Below, piece after piece: positions 7,501 to 34,978 of a DNA stretch of 64,000 nt. The notes beneath the pieces were generated by a model. The model made no database searches, was not told the origin of the DNA, and saw only the letters and a list, made by a program, of their open reading frames with translations. Both the position numbers and the translations under genes were made by a program. Every line of letters begins with the position of its first letter. Positions within the stretch are counted from its first letter, which is position 1. This DNA is from Litchfieldia alkalitelluris (lineage in GTDB: Bacteria > Bacillota > Bacilli > Bacillales > Salisediminibacteriaceae): NCBI RefSeq assembly GCF_002153425.1, contig NZ_KZ119600.1:4014095-4078094 (forward strand). Reading direction: 5' to 3'.

Positions 7501-10500
7501 TAGTTAAAGCTCTCTGTTGTTAAACGATACGTTTCATCTCGAATCGCAGAGAAGCGGAAATTACCGTTATTATCTGTACGTGTTCCGTAGCTGCTCCAAC
7601 GTTGCCCTTCCTCATACAAGTATACAAACACGTTTGATGCACCGTTACCGTATTCGTCCAACAGGCGCCCTTCAATAAACTTCTCCTGAATTAGTTCGAT
7701 TGGCTCTTCAATCACTGTCAAACCATTTTGGTTTAAGTCATCTCTTGAAACTGAATAATACTGTGTTTCATAACCCTGTAAATACACTTCAATCGAATAA
7801 TCTTTATCATTCGATAGACCATCAACGATAAATTCTCCACCATTCCCAGTCGTTGTGTACGCCCAAAAGCTATGATCATTACTAGTGACATAAACATTCG
7901 CATTAATGACAGCATTCCTTAATTCATTCAAAACAGTTCCTTGAACAGATAACCCCGCTTTTAGCGATATCTTGAACGTCCCATCTTTTTCAAGGAATAC
8001 ACTATTGCTTGAGAAGGATTCATATCCATCCGCTCGAACATTGACTGTATATTGCCCTTCAATCCAATCGTCTAATTCGATTACGCCGTCTTTATACTCT
8101 TCATCAAAACGTTCATATCGACCATACTCATTTTTGGTATCATTAGCGATTGCTCGATTAAAGATATTCACATACGATAAGGATTCTATTGGATTCCCAT
8201 TCTTATCCTCAACAGTAATTTTTGTTGCACCCACACGATACTCTTCCATTTCAACTTCAAGTTCAAAGAGGTTGGTATCTTTTCCAACAGTAACATTAAA
8301 GAAAGAATCTTCATATCTTCCTTCTCCAAAAACAATTATTTCGTATTCACCAACAGGAAGATTGATTTCTGTCGAAGAATTGTTCCATGTTCTGTATTGA
8401 CCTTGGTTATTGATATATCCGTATTGGAAAATGTCCCAATTGCGGGATTTTTCATCTATTCCTTCAATCAATACTTCTAGTGGACGATTAATAATTTGTC
8501 CATCACTACCTGTAAATTGGAATGTTACCTGTTCGTAGTCTTCTTGCGGTCGCAATGTTCGAATATAGGTAAAGTAAAAATCACTTCGCCTCTCCTCTTC
8601 TTCAAAAACTACTTCTACAACTACTTCATACCAACTGTTAGAAGCTAAGTCATCAAGTTTATACTCAGTAGCATCATTAGACAGTTCTGCAACGAGCTCA
8701 TAATCTGAATAGACATTAATATTTTTTACAAGGTCTAAATTCCCATCAGTCTCCCAACGAATAAGTGCATGACTATCACTTATGTCATGTTGAAGGTAGT
8801 AAAGAGAAACTCTCTCTTCTACAAAAACATCGTAATATATATCAATGTCAGTGCCTTGGTTATGCAAGTTTCTAAGAATTGCAAGAGTCGATTCATCCTC
8901 GTAATCTAAATTAGTTCCATGTAAATATAGATCCGACAGCTGATCATACTCAGCAATTGCATCGATACTAGTTATTGGATTGTGTGATAACCATAAAACT
9001 TCTACATTTGGTAGTTCACTTAATATATCTATATTAGATATATAGTTACTATCGAGATCTAAATAGTTTAAGTTTATTAAATTTTTTAATGCACTAATAT
9101 CTTGAATATTATTTCCATAAAGGTTCAAATCATTTAAATTTGTCAAATCTTTGATTGGAGATAGTTCCGTTATATTATTCCAACCAGCAAATAACGAGCG
9201 CAAATTAATCGCGTGCTCTAGGCCATTTAAGTTTTCAATTTCATATCCAGTTAGGTGCAAATACTCAACTTTTTGCAAATCACCAACCATAAGTGGGCGT
9301 TCCTTTATCCACAGATACTCCTTTATTGCTGCTTCTAAATTAGCATCTGGGAAATCAATAGATACCGCTGCCCCTTCTTCATATGTCCAAACGTCGGCAT
9401 GTCCATAATATAGTGTTTTTGAACGAGAATCATAAGCCTCTACGTATACATCATAATATGTTCCTGGATTTAAGTCTGAGAAAGTATAACTAGTGTCCGT
9501 CGTCGTATCTAGCAATTCACCATTTAAGCGAATTTCAAATGGAAGTTCACTAGGAACTATATTATCCCAGATTAGAGTGAACGATGTTTCGTTAATGTCC
9601 GTATTATAAACATCAAAATACGCATATTCATCAACAAAGCGTTCTATAAAAACTTCGACTCCATTCTGCTTTAATTCCTCTAAAACTCTGGCGACTTGCG
9701 CATCTCCTCTTGTATCAAGTCCTGGTTCCCCCAAACTGACATAATAGAGATTACTTAGTGATAGTAGGACTTCGATTTCAGTGATTTCGTTGTTATACAA
9801 ATATAAATAACTAATGCTAGGATGGTTTTCAATGAGCATAAGATCTTCATTTGTCAATCCACTATTACTAATTTCTAAATCATAAAGGGAGGTTAAATCT
9901 TCTAGAAAACTCCAATCATCAATATTTGCATTACCAATGTATAGTCCTTCTAGATTCTTAAATAATCTTAAATCATGTAAGGAATGAGGTTGTCTATCCT
10001 CAGAAATATTCAACCACCAGACACGCTCAAGATCACTCTCATATAGTTCGCGATGAGTGATGTTTACTCTATCTTTTATATAATCATTAAAGTTATCATT
10101 ATTAAAATCTACTACATCACCTGTTGGTTCAGGCCTTGTTCTAAACCAGTCATAAGTTTCCGCTACTATTGAGTTTGTTTCAACATCTATTAATTGAATT
10201 TCTACCTCATATTCTGTGTTCGGAGTCAATCCTGTAAAATAATAGTAATCGTCATCTACGTTAGTAGGGTTAATTATTTCTCCATTAAAAACAAAGGAAA
10301 GACCATTAAATGAAGTTGATTCATCAATGTAAACCTCTAATTCTACAGTACTTTCAGACGCATTAAATAAGTATGCGTAAACTAAGTCAGTCGTATAAAT
10401 GGTTCTAATATATCCATCGACTAAATTACCTTGGTTATCCTTAAATAGTACAGACACAAAATAAGCTGTATTTGGTGTTAAATTTTCAATTTGATATCTT

Positions 10501-31668: not shown

Positions 31669-33321
31669 ATGATGAAATGGAACGAAGAATTTGATGTTGT
31701 AGTTGTTGGTAGTGGCGGTGGTGGACTTGTGGCAGCGATCACGGCCGCTCACCATGGATTAAAGCCTGTCATTATTGAGAAAACAAAGGAGTACGGAGGA
31801 GCCACAGCATTATCAGGAGGCGGCATTTGGGTGCCGAATAACCACGTGTCGAAAAAAGCAGGTGTTAAGGATAGTGAAGAAGAAGGCCTTACTTATATGG
31901 AAGCTGTCATTGAGGATAAAGGGCCAGCCTCCACGTACGAAAGAAAAGCTGCTTACGTGAAAAATGGGCATAAAATGGTGAAATTTCTAGAAGATTTAGG
32001 TATGAAATGGGTACCAGGAACGAAATATCCTGACTACTACCCTGAGGCACCTGGCGGAAAAGTTGGTCGCGTGGTAGAAGGAGAAATTTTTGATGCAAAG
32101 AAGTTAGAAGACTATGAAGAAAAATTGAGAACTGGTGATATGGAGGCACCAATGCCCCTATACTCTGGCAAGGTATCATCAGTTCCAGTTGCTTTTACAA
32201 ATATGAAGGACTTCTCGACACTTGTTGGAATGGCCTTGAATGGTATGAGACACAAAGTTCTTGGGCGCCACGCCATCTCCATTGGTGGTGGTCTCATTGC
32301 CCGATTCATGCGAATTGCCTTGGACTTAAACATACCAATTCAATTGGAAACTCCTTTAAAGGACTTAATGATGGACGATAATGGGGAAAAAATCGTTGGC
32401 GTTCAAGCTGAAAAGGACGGAAAACCTTATTACATCAAGTGTAAGGCCGTTGTTTTAGCCAGCGGTGGATTTGAAAGAAATCCAGAACTCCGCAAAAAAT
32501 ATCATAACATTAATGGGGATTGGTCCTCCTCTCGCACGGAAAATACAGGTGATATTCTCAAAATCGCAGAAAAGTACGAACTCGATACTGCATTGTTGGA
32601 CGACGCCTGGTGGGGGCCAGCAACAGTAGATGGGAATGGGCGACAGAAATTTTTAGTATATGAGCGCTCCATGCCCCACTCCATCATTGTTGATCAAGAT
32701 GGCGAACGATATTTCAATGAATCTGAATCCTATACTGATGCAGGTCACGCTATCTTGGAGCGTCAGGAAAAGACAGGTAAAGGTATTCACTCGTGGATGA
32801 TCATGGAAAGCAGGCATCGAAACAGGTATTTATTCGGTGATATGCTACCGAAACGAACGCCACAGGAAGCAATCGACAGTGGATTTTTAATTAAGGCCGA
32901 TACTATTGAGGAGCTTGCGGAAAAATGTGAGATTCCTGTTGAGCAATTAAAGGGAACGATTACTAGGTTTAACGGATTTGTGGAAGCCGGTGTAGATGAG
33001 GACTTTGGACGTGGGAAATCCGCATACGACCGATACTACGGGGATCCTACTTATGAATATCCGAATCTAGGAACCATTGAAAATGGACCTTTCTATGCGT
33101 GTAAAATTTACCCTGGTGACTTAGGAACAAAAGGCGGTATCGTTGCAAATGAAAATGGTCAGGCATTGAAGAATGGCCAACCAATTGAAGGACTATATGC
33201 AACTGGAAACTGCTCCGCCTCAGTGATGGGACGTGTTTATCCTGGTCCAGGATCAGCGATCGGTGGAACAACCGTATTCGGGTATATCTCAGCGAATCAT
33301 ATAAAAGAAGAGCTATTCTAG
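31669..33321 (+). CDS. FAD-dependent dehydrogenase, 3-ketosteroid-delta1-dehydrogenase/fumarate reductase superfamily
   Basis: 550 residues. The FAD-binding N-terminus is VVVVGSGGGGLVAAITAAHH, followed by EKTKEYGGATALSGGGIWVP. The catalytic/capping part is central, and the C-terminal FAD motif is GLYATGNCSASVMGRVYPGP with GSAIGGTTVFGYISANH, typical of KstD-like enzymes in motif and length. It could desaturate a ketosteroid or a related ring ketone; the substrate cannot be fixed from sequence. ATG at 31669 or 31672 follows AGGAGGGATT. Single-gene unit, probably controlled by the divergent TetR gene. Confidence 0.85.
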   Translation: MMKWNEEFDVVVVGSGGGGLVAAITAAHHGLKPVIIEKTKEYGGATALSGGGIWVPNNHVSKKAGVKDSEEEGLTYMEAVIEDKGPASTYERKAAYVKNGHKMVKFLEDLGMKWVPGTKYPDYYPEAPGGKVGRVVEGEIFDAKKLEDYEEKLRTGDMEAPMPLYSGKVSSVPVAFTNMKDFSTLVGMALNGMRHKVLGRHAISIGGGLIARFMRIALDLNIPIQLETPLKDLMMDDNGEKIVGVQAEKDGKPYYIKCKAVVLASGGFERNPELRKKYHNINGDWSSSRTENTGDILKIAEKYELDTALLDDAWWGPATVDGNGRQKFLVYERSMPHSIIVDQDGERYFNESESYTDAGHAILERQEKTGKGIHSWMIMESRHRNRYLFGDMLPKRTPQEAIDSGFLIKADTIEELAEKCEIPVEQLKGTITRFNGFVEAGVDEDFGRGKSAYDRYYGDPTYEYPNLGTIENGPFYACKIYPGDLGTKGGIVANENGQALKNGQPIEGLYATGNCSASVMGRVYPGPGSAIGGTTVFGYISANHIKEELF

Positions 33322-33419
33322 TAAAGTTCGGGGACCCAAGTTCGGGGACCAGGTCCCCGAACTTTTTGTGTCTGTTCATAAAATTGTGTGGGACCAGGTC
33401 CCCGAACTTTCTGTGAACT
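33321..33419. repeat. Second palindrome family (GGGACCAGGTCCC type)
   Basis: Two hairpins in tandem with core GGGGACCAGGTCCCCGAACTT, the first directly after the flavoprotein stop codon, separated by TTTGTGTCTGTTCAT. It has different arms but the same habit as the main family: placement after a stop codon and GTAAAG/GTGAAC-like ends. Confidence 0.8.
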
Positions 33420-33424
33420 CTTTC

Positions 33425-33622
33425 CTAACTATCTTTTCTACTCTTCAATTCCTCTATAATGTAGATCATTTCCATTTTAATATCTGAGGCTTTTTCAAAT
33501 TCAAAAGCATTTCTGGCGAATGATAAATCCTCAACTAATACTCCATAACGCTCTTTTAGTTCCTCAAATGACTGTTCTGATAAATTCAAGATATTTTTAA
33601 GGTTAGGACTACCTTTATACAT
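33425..33622 (-). CDS. Small UvrB/UvrC-motif-like protein under a c-di-GMP riboswitch
   Basis: 65 residues from the ATG at 33622, which has a perfectly spaced GGAAGGAGAG; a longer frame from 33643 would start inside that site. The core ELKERYGVLVEDLSFARNAF followed by EFEKASDIKMEMIYIIEELK resembles the UvrB/UvrC interaction motif (a helical hairpin with conserved FE.AA..R/K..I). No catalytic domain is present. It probably binds a partner through this hairpin. Its leader contains a c-di-GMP-I riboswitch and terminator, so its level should follow c-di-GMP. Confidence 0.75.
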   Translation of the reverse strand: MYKGSPNLKNILNLSEQSFEELKERYGVLVEDLSFARNAFEFEKASDIKMEMIYIIEELKSRKDS

Positions 33623-33759
33623 TTTATCTCTCCTTCCAATCATGAAGATAACTTACTTTTAAGCATTGATATCCCTTGATACCTATTAAACTCCTTTCTC
33701 TTTTTTATGATTTATTTGCTTTTATAATAGACTACTTATATAAATTTAAGGGCTATAGA

Positions 33760-33812
33760 TATTCATCCCATTAATAATAAAAGATGAATACCAAAAAAAC
33801 AGATATTCATCT
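33760..33812 (-). terminator. Riboswitch expression platform: terminator with competing repeat
   Basis: Minus strand GATGAATATC, loop TGTTTTTTTG, GTATTCATC, then TTTTATTATT. A second GATGAATATC copy follows about 25 bases later and could compete for the same pairing strand. Confidence 0.7.
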
Positions 33813-33825
33813 CATATCAGTTTTA

Positions 33826-33907
33826 TTCGGCAACCGGCTACCTTAGTATTACAACTTTAGGCCCCTGGCTTTGCGTCCTTATTTTTCAATAAGTTTGCTA
33901 TTATCAC
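33826..33907 (-). ncRNA. c-di-GMP-I (GEMM-I) riboswitch
   Basis: The minus strand has the class I hallmarks in order: AGCAAAC, the P2 hairpin CTTATT-GAAA-AATAAG with a GNRA loop, GGACGCAAAGCC, the receptor-side GGGGCCTAAAG, and the closing GGTAGCCGGTTGCC. Spacing matches known c-di-GMP-I aptamers. A terminator follows, then the small UvrB/UvrC-motif gene. Confidence 0.9.
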
Positions 33908-33923
33908 TAAAACATATGAATTT

Positions 33924-33952
33924 AGTATGGACTGTGCTTACTTCTCTATCAA
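33924..33952 (-). promoter_or_regulatory. Promoter of the c-di-GMP riboswitch transcript
   Basis: Minus strand TTGATA (33947-33952), 17 bases, CATACT (33924-33929), which places the transcript start about ten bases before the aptamer. Confidence 0.65.
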
Positions 33953-34081
33953 AATACATAAAACATATGTATATACATTTCGACACTTTTTGGCAATAAC
34001 CTTCCTATTATTGAAATATCAGTATAAAGGTAATAGTCGATTATACCCAGTGAACATCAGAGCCCCTTTTGCGCTCAAAAC

Positions 34082-34116
34082 GCCACGTAAACGCAAGAAC
34101 CGTCCCTGCGTTCACC
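34082..34116. repeat. Solo right arm of the palindromic element
   Basis: GTAAACGCAAGAACCGTCCC followed by TGCGTTCACC; no left arm within 100 bases. Confidence 0.8.
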
Positions 34117-34231
34117 CCGCCCCTCCCGTTCTCCGCCCCCTCTGCCACACCCCCACCATCATCAATTTTGGTACAATTAACCTAGTAGAGATCATTACCA
34201 ATATATAAAAATAAGAATATGGAGGACTAAC

Positions 34232-34978
34232 ATGGACAAGGTATTATATAGTGAGTTAAACCCTAGTGAGTTTAGAAAGCGCCTGAGTGAAGCACCAATT
34301 GCCTACCTACCACTTGGAACACTAGAGTGGCATGGAGAACATTTACCGTTGGGCTCTGATAGCATACAGTCACAAGGTTTCTTTGAACTGCTTGCCAAGG
34401 AAATCGGGGGAATTGTTTTACCACCATTGTTTTTAGGACCTGATAATAAAACCGAGATAGCTGGGAAAGAGCTTTACGGAATGGACTATTTTGAGATTGA
34501 TCCAGACAGGGAGAATAAACAACCTCACCTGAAGGAACAGTTAGACGGCAGCGCCTATTGGGTACCAGACGAGACCTTCACCCTCCTACTTGATGCAACG
34601 TTAAAGCAACTCAAACGGGCAGGGTTCAAAATTGTGGTTGCCCACGGGCATGGCCCATCTACACACCACTTTATAAAAACAATTCCTCAATGGAAGGAAA
34701 AATATGACTTAGAATGTTTCGCCTGTTGGGGAAGTGAGCAAGATGAGGAAGGGCTCGGTCTAATGGTGGATCACGCTGCCATGAATGAGACATCTATCTT
34801 GATGGCTCTGAGACCTGATTTAGTTCAGTTAGAAAAGCTCCCACAAGACCTACATGAGTGGCCGCTCGGCATTGCAGGTCAAGACCCACGCACTAATGCT
34901 AGTAAAGCGCTTGGTGAAAAAATCATTTCCCTCCAGCTAAAAAGAATGATACATATTTTGAAAGAAAGGTTAAAATAA
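34232..34978 (+). CDS. Creatininase family amidohydrolase
   Basis: 248 residues with the family metal-binding motifs: LPLGTLEWHGEHLPLGSDS (Glu/His/Asp ligands, about 25-45), VAHGHGPSTHH (about 147-157) and HAAMNETSILMALRPDLV (Glu ligand). Relatives hydrolyse creatinine or modified nucleoside/lactam rings, and the true substrate here is open. ATG at 34232 is preceded by ATGGAGGACTAAC. Single gene; the upstream solo palindrome arm lies about 120 bases away. Confidence 0.88.
   Translation: MDKVLYSELNPSEFRKRLSEAPIAYLPLGTLEWHGEHLPLGSDSIQSQGFFELLAKEIGGIVLPPLFLGPDNKTEIAGKELYGMDYFEIDPDRENKQPHLKEQLDGSAYWVPDETFTLLLDATLKQLKRAGFKIVVAHGHGPSTHHFIKTIPQWKEKYDLECFACWGSEQDEEGLGLMVDHAAMNETSILMALRPDLVQLEKLPQDLHEWPLGIAGQDPRTNASKALGEKIISLQLKRMIHILKERLK

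Follow-up and report, generated by a model that had tools for sequence, protein, structure and literature searches.

The analysed stretch of DNA (hereafter the window) comprises 64,000 nt of contig NZ_KZ119600.1 from Litchfieldia alkalitelluris. On its minus strand, between positions 33425 and 33952, it carries a short unit made up of a promoter-like site, a riboswitch aptamer, an intrinsic terminator hairpin and one small gene. The aptamer (33909-33826, minus strand) is of the c-di-GMP-I (GEMM-I) type in its A20 variant: it matches the covariance model RF01051 at full length (model positions 1-87 of 87) with a score of 78.2 bits, the gathering score being 35, and E = 1.1e-13 over the whole window, which bears out an earlier sequence-only reading that had recognized a full c-di-GMP-I aptamer here. 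Two Rfam matches reach the gathering threshold in the 64 kb, and the aptamer is one of them. Judged by its sequence, the aptamer lies in the 5' leader of the gene together with an expression platform, and 203 nt separate its end from the start codon, with the terminator in between. The P1 helix pairs GUUUUA (33908-33913, minus strand; fold and sequence) with UAAAAC (33820-33825, minus strand; folds), and the latter arm is common to the 5' arm of a predicted antiterminator hairpin, AAAAC-U-GAUAU / AUAUC-U-GUUUU (33796-33824, minus strand; folds). The terminator hairpin GAUGAAUAUC / GGUAUUCAUC occupies 33811-33783 on the minus strand and is trailed by UUUUAUUAUU, its U-rich tail extending to 33773. 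It is absent from our hairpin scan because its 9-base loop exceeds the limit of 8 bases set for loops in that scan.

Downstream of the platform, a ribosome binding site GGAAGGAG (33630-33637, minus strand) precedes the ATG of a 65-codon open reading frame (33622-33425, minus strand) that encodes a UVR-like helical-hairpin protein, MYKGSPNLKNILNL.... The genes on either side, for a FAD_binding_2 protein and a member of the creatininase family, are read from the opposite strand, so the unit has one gene, and its earlier description as a self-contained one-gene unit with a good ribosome site holds. The promoter proposed for it, TTGATA-17-CATACT (33952-33924, minus strand), is present as a site with 9 of 12 consensus matches; it does not rise above chance, as the region 33000-34400 contains 2 promoter-like sites against 4.5 in shuffled sequences. 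The same consensus scan found no promoter-like site in the stretch from the terminator to the gene. The interval that separates the FAD-dependent gene from the small gene contains, at 33324-33409, the palindromic repeat AAGTTCGGGGACC / GGTCCCCGAACTT, which occurs twice in each orientation and could act as a terminator. Elsewhere in the window, an M-box magnesium riboswitch (RF00380, 142.3 bits; 25235-25069, minus strand) lies upstream of a 455-codon frame (24667-23300, minus strand) that resembles MgtE by eye, an ordinary pairing.

The small protein, its homologues and their riboswitches

The product of the 65-codon gene had been likened to the UvrB/UvrC motif, and the likeness stands as far as the fold and the profile are concerned. 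AlphaFold supplied with ten sequences predicts two long helices (19-38 and 42-64), the five models having a mean pLDDT of 81.5-85.2; one of the five models made without an alignment was confident (84.9), the others scoring 52-59. Structural comparison by Foldseek placed ClpC-containing entries at ranks 1-6, matched in what we take to be the ClpC M-domain, and, at rank 23, one chain of the McsA/McsB complex; every one of these matches has E >= 0.77. With the first, alignment-free model, ClpC entries held ranks 2-4 behind a ribosomal chain; these are weak matches, with E-values above 0.1 for both models. The comparison by hhalign took as its target the UVR regions of the four UVR proteins of the same genome, presumably UvrB, McsA, UvrC and ClpC, and gave a score of 27.7 (probability 68%) with the FE-x-A core in register, against 22.8 for the best of 200 column shuffles and 15.4 for the reversed alignment. 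The likeness fails at the Pfam cut-off: the UVR family model (PF02151) finds none of 14 members, even with E-values up to 5 admitted, and for this reason the protein is, on its profiles and predicted models, to be called UVR-like and not a UVR family member. In the same 14 members, the matches that Pfam and NCBIfam gave were scattered over unrelated families, with E no lower than 0.0035 and 0.022, and a PDB sequence search returned nothing below E = 0.29. YfhH / DUF1811 (PF08838) was tried as a relative and rejected, the profile comparison of the N-terminal hairpin giving a probability of 1.2%. Its structure 1sf9 tied at the top with ribosomal L29 chains in VIA-align (Z 8.0-8.8, best 50 listed), a range in which, by the tool's own note, values below about 13 are uninformative for helical shapes.

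Homologues of the protein occur in 14 of 35 genomes of its own family, L. alkalitelluris included. In a second family 5 of 41 genomes matched, and with the dropping of one of them (G082) 18 homologues over the two families remain. The dropped candidate (loci L060 and L128) matched at E of about 1e-4 over about 41 profile positions inside an unrelated frame of 357 codons. The order-wide sample of 397 genomes gave seven matches, which are six of the 18 homologues and the dropped candidate. No relative was found when a set of genome contigs was scanned with the window protein; scanning with the alignment instead of the single protein gave nine loci. Members include Evansella sp. AB-P1, E. clarkii, E. 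vedderi, Salipaludibacillus aurantiacus, Texcoconibacillus texcoconensis, Bacillus sp. JCM 19034 and Halalkalibacter hemicellulosilyticus JCM 9152.

An intact RF01051 aptamer lies directly upstream of six of the 18 homologues (G000, G004, G149, G422, G425 and G430), so that the pairing of riboswitch and gene, which the sequence-only reading had proposed to look for in other genomes, recurs in other Bacillales. Sequence comparison thus establishes the aptamer and its pairing with the gene. The genes adjoining the six intact pairs differ, and at least three different gene neighbourhoods are represented. The remaining homologues are more varied. The copy in E. vedderi follows a degenerate aptamer half and a terminator-like hairpin (by eye; L030, about 8800-8950, plus strand): the 5' half of the aptamer is apparently lost, and P3-like bases remain with the hairpin. 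Two homologues (G009 and G011) are separated from a G20 aptamer by a small Cys-rich frame (MKKIKVD..., with CxxC...CxxC; L028 5882-6088, plus strand, and L034 about 5885-5680, minus strand), whose Pfam matches are all below cut-off; the succession of a zinc-ribbon frame and a UVR-like gene is, in our estimation, reminiscent of a split McsA. In one genome the aptamer lies downstream of the UVR-like gene (L035 5579-5494, minus strand), before a Spo0E-like frame (PF09388, E = 8e-4, below cut-off). Eight homologues have no riboswitch at the gathering threshold within 1.5 to about 6 kb. With these exceptions among the 18 homologues, the job of the protein does not require control of this kind. In Bacillus sp. 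JCM 19034 (G430), locus L164 additionally shows two tandem A20 aptamers, 375 nt apart, upstream of another frame.

The eight homologues without a nearby riboswitch would fit an adjacency of aptamer and small gene that arose by chance. Six intact pairs in two families, with differing neighbours and with A20 and the platform in common, speak against this, and we consider a chance adjacency extremely improbable. A separate doubt concerns the window copy itself, whose aptamer might be decaying so that the gene is no longer controlled: following AGCC it lacks one base relative to the other five, and it reads AGGGG in place of their ACGGG or GCGGG, and the E. vedderi locus, with its degenerate 5' half and its retained hairpin, offers an example of such a fate. 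Against decay, the window aptamer is a full-length match of 78.2 bits, and its P2, P2 loop, junction bases and platform align with those of the other five; loss of control at this locus therefore appears quite improbable.

The sequence-only reading had held the target to be unusual because it is not a motility gene. This is weakened by one relative (G422), in which the UVR-like gene comes first in a cluster of genes for motility and cyclic dinucleotides: the A20 aptamer and the UVR-like gene are succeeded by a multi-HTH protein, an HD-domain protein, a YvyF-like frame (TIGR03826, 51.6 bits, below cut-off) and a FliL-like protein (PF03748, above cut-off), the HD protein having been scanned on the G431 copy and the HTH, YvyF-like and FliL-like proteins on the G422 copy. 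Upstream of the cluster, a GGDEF-containing and a chemotaxis-receptor-like protein are apparent by eye. The HTH gene of G429, G431 and G157 stands behind the same A20 platform (in the last the gene was recognized by eye), and in G424 the HTH gene lies behind an A20 aptamer with a different platform. A second A20 aptamer of G431 precedes a FliL-like frame. Gene contexts of this type point to a tie, within that group, between the switch and both motility and the turnover of cyclic dinucleotides. In the window genome the unit stands alone, with no such cluster.

Among the genes that follow the other aptamers of the window genome are, by eye, those for a PAS-type protein, a CheX-like and CheY-like pair, Flp-like pilins, a TPR-like protein and a SinI-like protein. 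The last of these c-di-GMP-I riboswitches (L008, 1501-1606 and 1639-1773) concerns a SinI-like anti-repressor (PF08671, E = 1e-11), and further on in the same locus a protein resembles TasA/camelysin by eye; a riboswitch on SinI is a possible form of biofilm control.

The expression platform

The platform aligns across all six intact loci. In minimum-energy folds of the full-length leaders the terminator forms in all six and P1 in two (G000 and G430). When leaders were cut inside the terminator loop, the antiterminator folded at the longest cut in five of them (G000, G004, G430, G149 and G422); in the whole leader of G425 none of three cuts produced it. Of the other A20 leaders sharing this platform, those of G431 and G429 fold it and that of G157 does not. 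When the platform is folded by itself, all nine sequences give the antiterminator, that of G004 its inner part only. The 5' arm of the antiterminator is the 3' strand of P1, and the loop strand GUUUU repeats the 5' strand of P1. The same arrangement is seen with altered sequence in G425 and G430, where the P1 3' strand is GGGAC and its partner GUUC occurs in both P1 and the terminator loop.

The terminator claimed for this locus is supported by comparison: in nine aligned relatives 98.9% of the cells pair, four of ten pairs show changes on both sides, and none of 500 shuffles reached its covariation score. In the same relatives 92.2% of the antiterminator cells pair and one pair is changed on both sides, with no covariation excess, as 338 of 500 shuffles reached the score. 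The antiterminator is thus supported by conservation and mutual exclusion, not by covariation. The P1 duplex is weak, at -0.9 to -4.9 kcal/mol in nine sequences. In all nine platforms the terminator exceeds the antiterminator in stability, so that the ON state would have to be kinetic. The antiterminator of the Cd1 riboswitch is likewise described as transiently stable (PMC9262584, excerpt).

A competing GATGAATATC repeat had also been proposed. A second copy of GATGAATATC does exist (33767-33758, minus strand), on the far side of the terminator; none of the other five loci has an equivalent copy within 140 nt, and the repeat was rejected as a conserved competing element. The element able to compete is ACTGATAT together with GTTTT in the terminator loop.

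Because the P1 3' strand doubles as the antiterminator 5' arm, as in Cd1, an OFF switch is predicted. We think it probable that the unit works as an OFF switch at the level of transcription, with GEMM-I architecture in the A20 form, and controls one small UVR-like hairpin protein, the mechanism being what we infer from the shared strands. Binding of the cyclic dinucleotide would allow P1 (GUUUUA/UAAAAC) to form and hold the AAAAC strand; the antiterminator AAAACUGAUAU/AUAUCUGUUUU would then be blocked, and the downstream hairpin would terminate transcription and leave the gene off. At low signal, AAAAC would pair with the GUUUU of the terminator loop during transcription, permitting the polymerase to read through, and the protein would be made in a low-signal, motile-like state. 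UVR hairpins act through protein-protein contact, and this is the most likely mode of action for the hairpin protein as well; a ClpC- or McsA-type partner may be guessed.

The opposite logic, an ON switch in which ligand binding prevents termination, is found in some GEMM aptamers: in the pilM riboswitch of Geobacter metallireducens ligand binding keeps the terminator from folding (PMC9262584, excerpt). Here, by contrast, the terminator stem (33811-33783) and P1 (33825-33820) share no bases, so that the ligand has no direct way to block the terminator, and the competitor of P1 is the predicted antiterminator. We regard an ON switch at this locus as distinctly unlikely and retain the OFF reading.

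The base at position 20 and the ligand

In the RF01051 alignment position 20 of the window aptamer, the selectivity position, is A (33899, minus strand) and position 19 is U (33900); the A lies opposite model position 11, by an equivalence taken from PMC9262584 and PMC6456294 (both in excerpt). The aptamer thus has the A20 of GEMM-Ib and not the G20 of c-di-GMP-selective members, and c-di-GMP, which the sequence-only reading had assumed to be the ligand, cannot be assumed for an aptamer of this variant group. The window genome contains nine c-di-GMP-I aptamers above the gathering score, of which only the window copy has A20, the other eight having G20. All six intact aptamers directly paired with a UVR-like gene have A20. 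An exact aptamer pattern, which is strict and recovers six of the nine aptamers of the window genome, found 139 aptamers in the two families, 123 with G20 and 16 with A20. A20 is therefore present in six of six paired aptamers against 10 of 133 other pattern matches (Fisher P = 8.9e-7), a figure to be read with the relatedness of the six aptamers in mind, because of which the association does not represent six independent events. Order-wide, counting A20 alone, 28 such aptamers occur in 27 of 397 genomes, and the genes behind them code, by eye, for PAS proteins, chemotaxis receptors, surface proteins, FolE and others.

The neighbouring base varies together with position 20. Among the loci examined, many of them chosen for being A20, U19 accompanies A20 in 31 of 41 cases and G20 in 9 of 33 (Fisher P = 5e-5, the cases not being independent). 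In the Geobacter cGAMP riboswitch U13 and A14 are among the bases contacting the ligand (PMC7288161, excerpt), and A14 is the last base before P2 (PMC6274999, excerpt), the same place that position 20 takes here. In Gmet_0970 the change of A20 to G switches selectivity from cGAMP to c-di-GMP (PMC6456294, excerpt). The association of A20 with the paired gene, the accompanying U19 that reproduces the U-A of Geobacter, and the effect of this substitution all favour a reading in which the A20 aptamer is a true GEMM-Ib member with 3',3'-cGAMP as its ligand, supplied by a pathway not known in Bacillales.

Several observations count against this reading. Hypr enzymes carry Ser at the position of D344 of PleD (PMC7288161, excerpt). 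Of 19 GGDEF matches in the window genome 18 are above cut-off, and none of these 18 has the Hypr signature (Ser/Thr) at the base-reading residue, which is D in 16 and N in two; a pattern search of the 19 GGDEF domains in the loci examined likewise found no Hypr member (17 D, 2 N). The two window-genome domains with N at this position read GHHSGN and GHLLGN (L071 and L074). No SMODS nucleotidyltransferase was found in the window genome. Many genes behind other A20 aptamers resemble, by eye, ordinary c-di-GMP targets, and the relatedness of the six paired aptamers counts here too. Moreover, the base is described as a selectivity factor and not a hard filter in the source that equates G11 of Cd1 with G20 of Vc2 (PMC9262584, excerpt). 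We hold the 3',3'-cGAMP reading to be a serious possibility, short of a probable one. A20 argues for a changed ligand preference, and the gene content checked (GGDEF and SMODS) gives cGAMP no support. The ligand would be a cyclic dinucleotide, with c-di-GMP recognized through a retuned pocket slightly more likely than 3',3'-cGAMP.

Significance and relation to known systems

The architecture of the aptamer and the OFF logic are already known. What appears to be new, as far as our literature search shows, is the pairing with this small protein family and the association of the pairing with A20-U19 in Bacillales; such aptamers may have been listed earlier in the primary cGAMP-riboswitch papers, which lay outside the search. 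The search met with no description of a cGAMP riboswitch for Bacillales, and among the papers listed for UVR or FliL combined with the riboswitch or the genera none was relevant. One paper places the cGAMP riboswitch class in several gram-negative bacteria (PMC9262584, excerpt). The substitution falls on the very base that discriminates c-di-GMP from 3',3'-cGAMP, and a second cyclic-dinucleotide pathway in Bacillales may be at stake in the ligand of this aptamer. On a bolder and rather unlikely proposal, the GEMM-I aptamers with A20-U19 in Evansella, Halalkalibacter and their relatives would form a Gram-positive group of OFF switches, responsive to 3',3'-cGAMP or promiscuous, that governs motility-linked genes including a ClpC/McsA-like UVR hairpin; if true, a cyclic-dinucleotide signal would be coupled to ClpC-dependent proteolysis via a free-standing UVR hairpin. 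The conserved pairing also provides a lead to function (low signal, motility, a hairpin acting by protein-protein contact) for a protein family that otherwise has only scattered, unrelated Pfam and NCBIfam matches.

Proteins with the UVR motif (PF02151) include UvrB, UvrC, McsA and, in its M-domain, ClpC. The small protein resembles them in its predicted two-helix hairpin and in the FE-x-A-like core, which falls in register. It differs in that the UVR proteins of the same genome have an R-D pair where the small family has K followed by M, T, L or S, and in that it is free-standing, with 65 residues and without other domains. With the GEMM-Ib, or 3',3'-cGAMP, riboswitches of Geobacter the window aptamer shares the architecture and, in the ligand pocket, an A20 that follows a U. 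It differs in that an OFF-type platform is predicted here, against the ON switch of pilM; the hosts are Gram-positive alkaliphiles, and neither a Hypr GGDEF nor SMODS was found in the window genome. The closest parallel in logic is Cd1 of C. difficile, situated upstream of flagellar genes (PMC9262584, excerpt), which has the same GEMM-I aptamer with a separate terminator, the same sharing of a strand between P1 and antiterminator, the OFF logic predicted here and a motility context. In Cd1, however, the selectivity base is G11, which corresponds to G20, and the target is a flagellar operon, whereas the window aptamer has A20 after U19 and its target is a small UVR-like gene.
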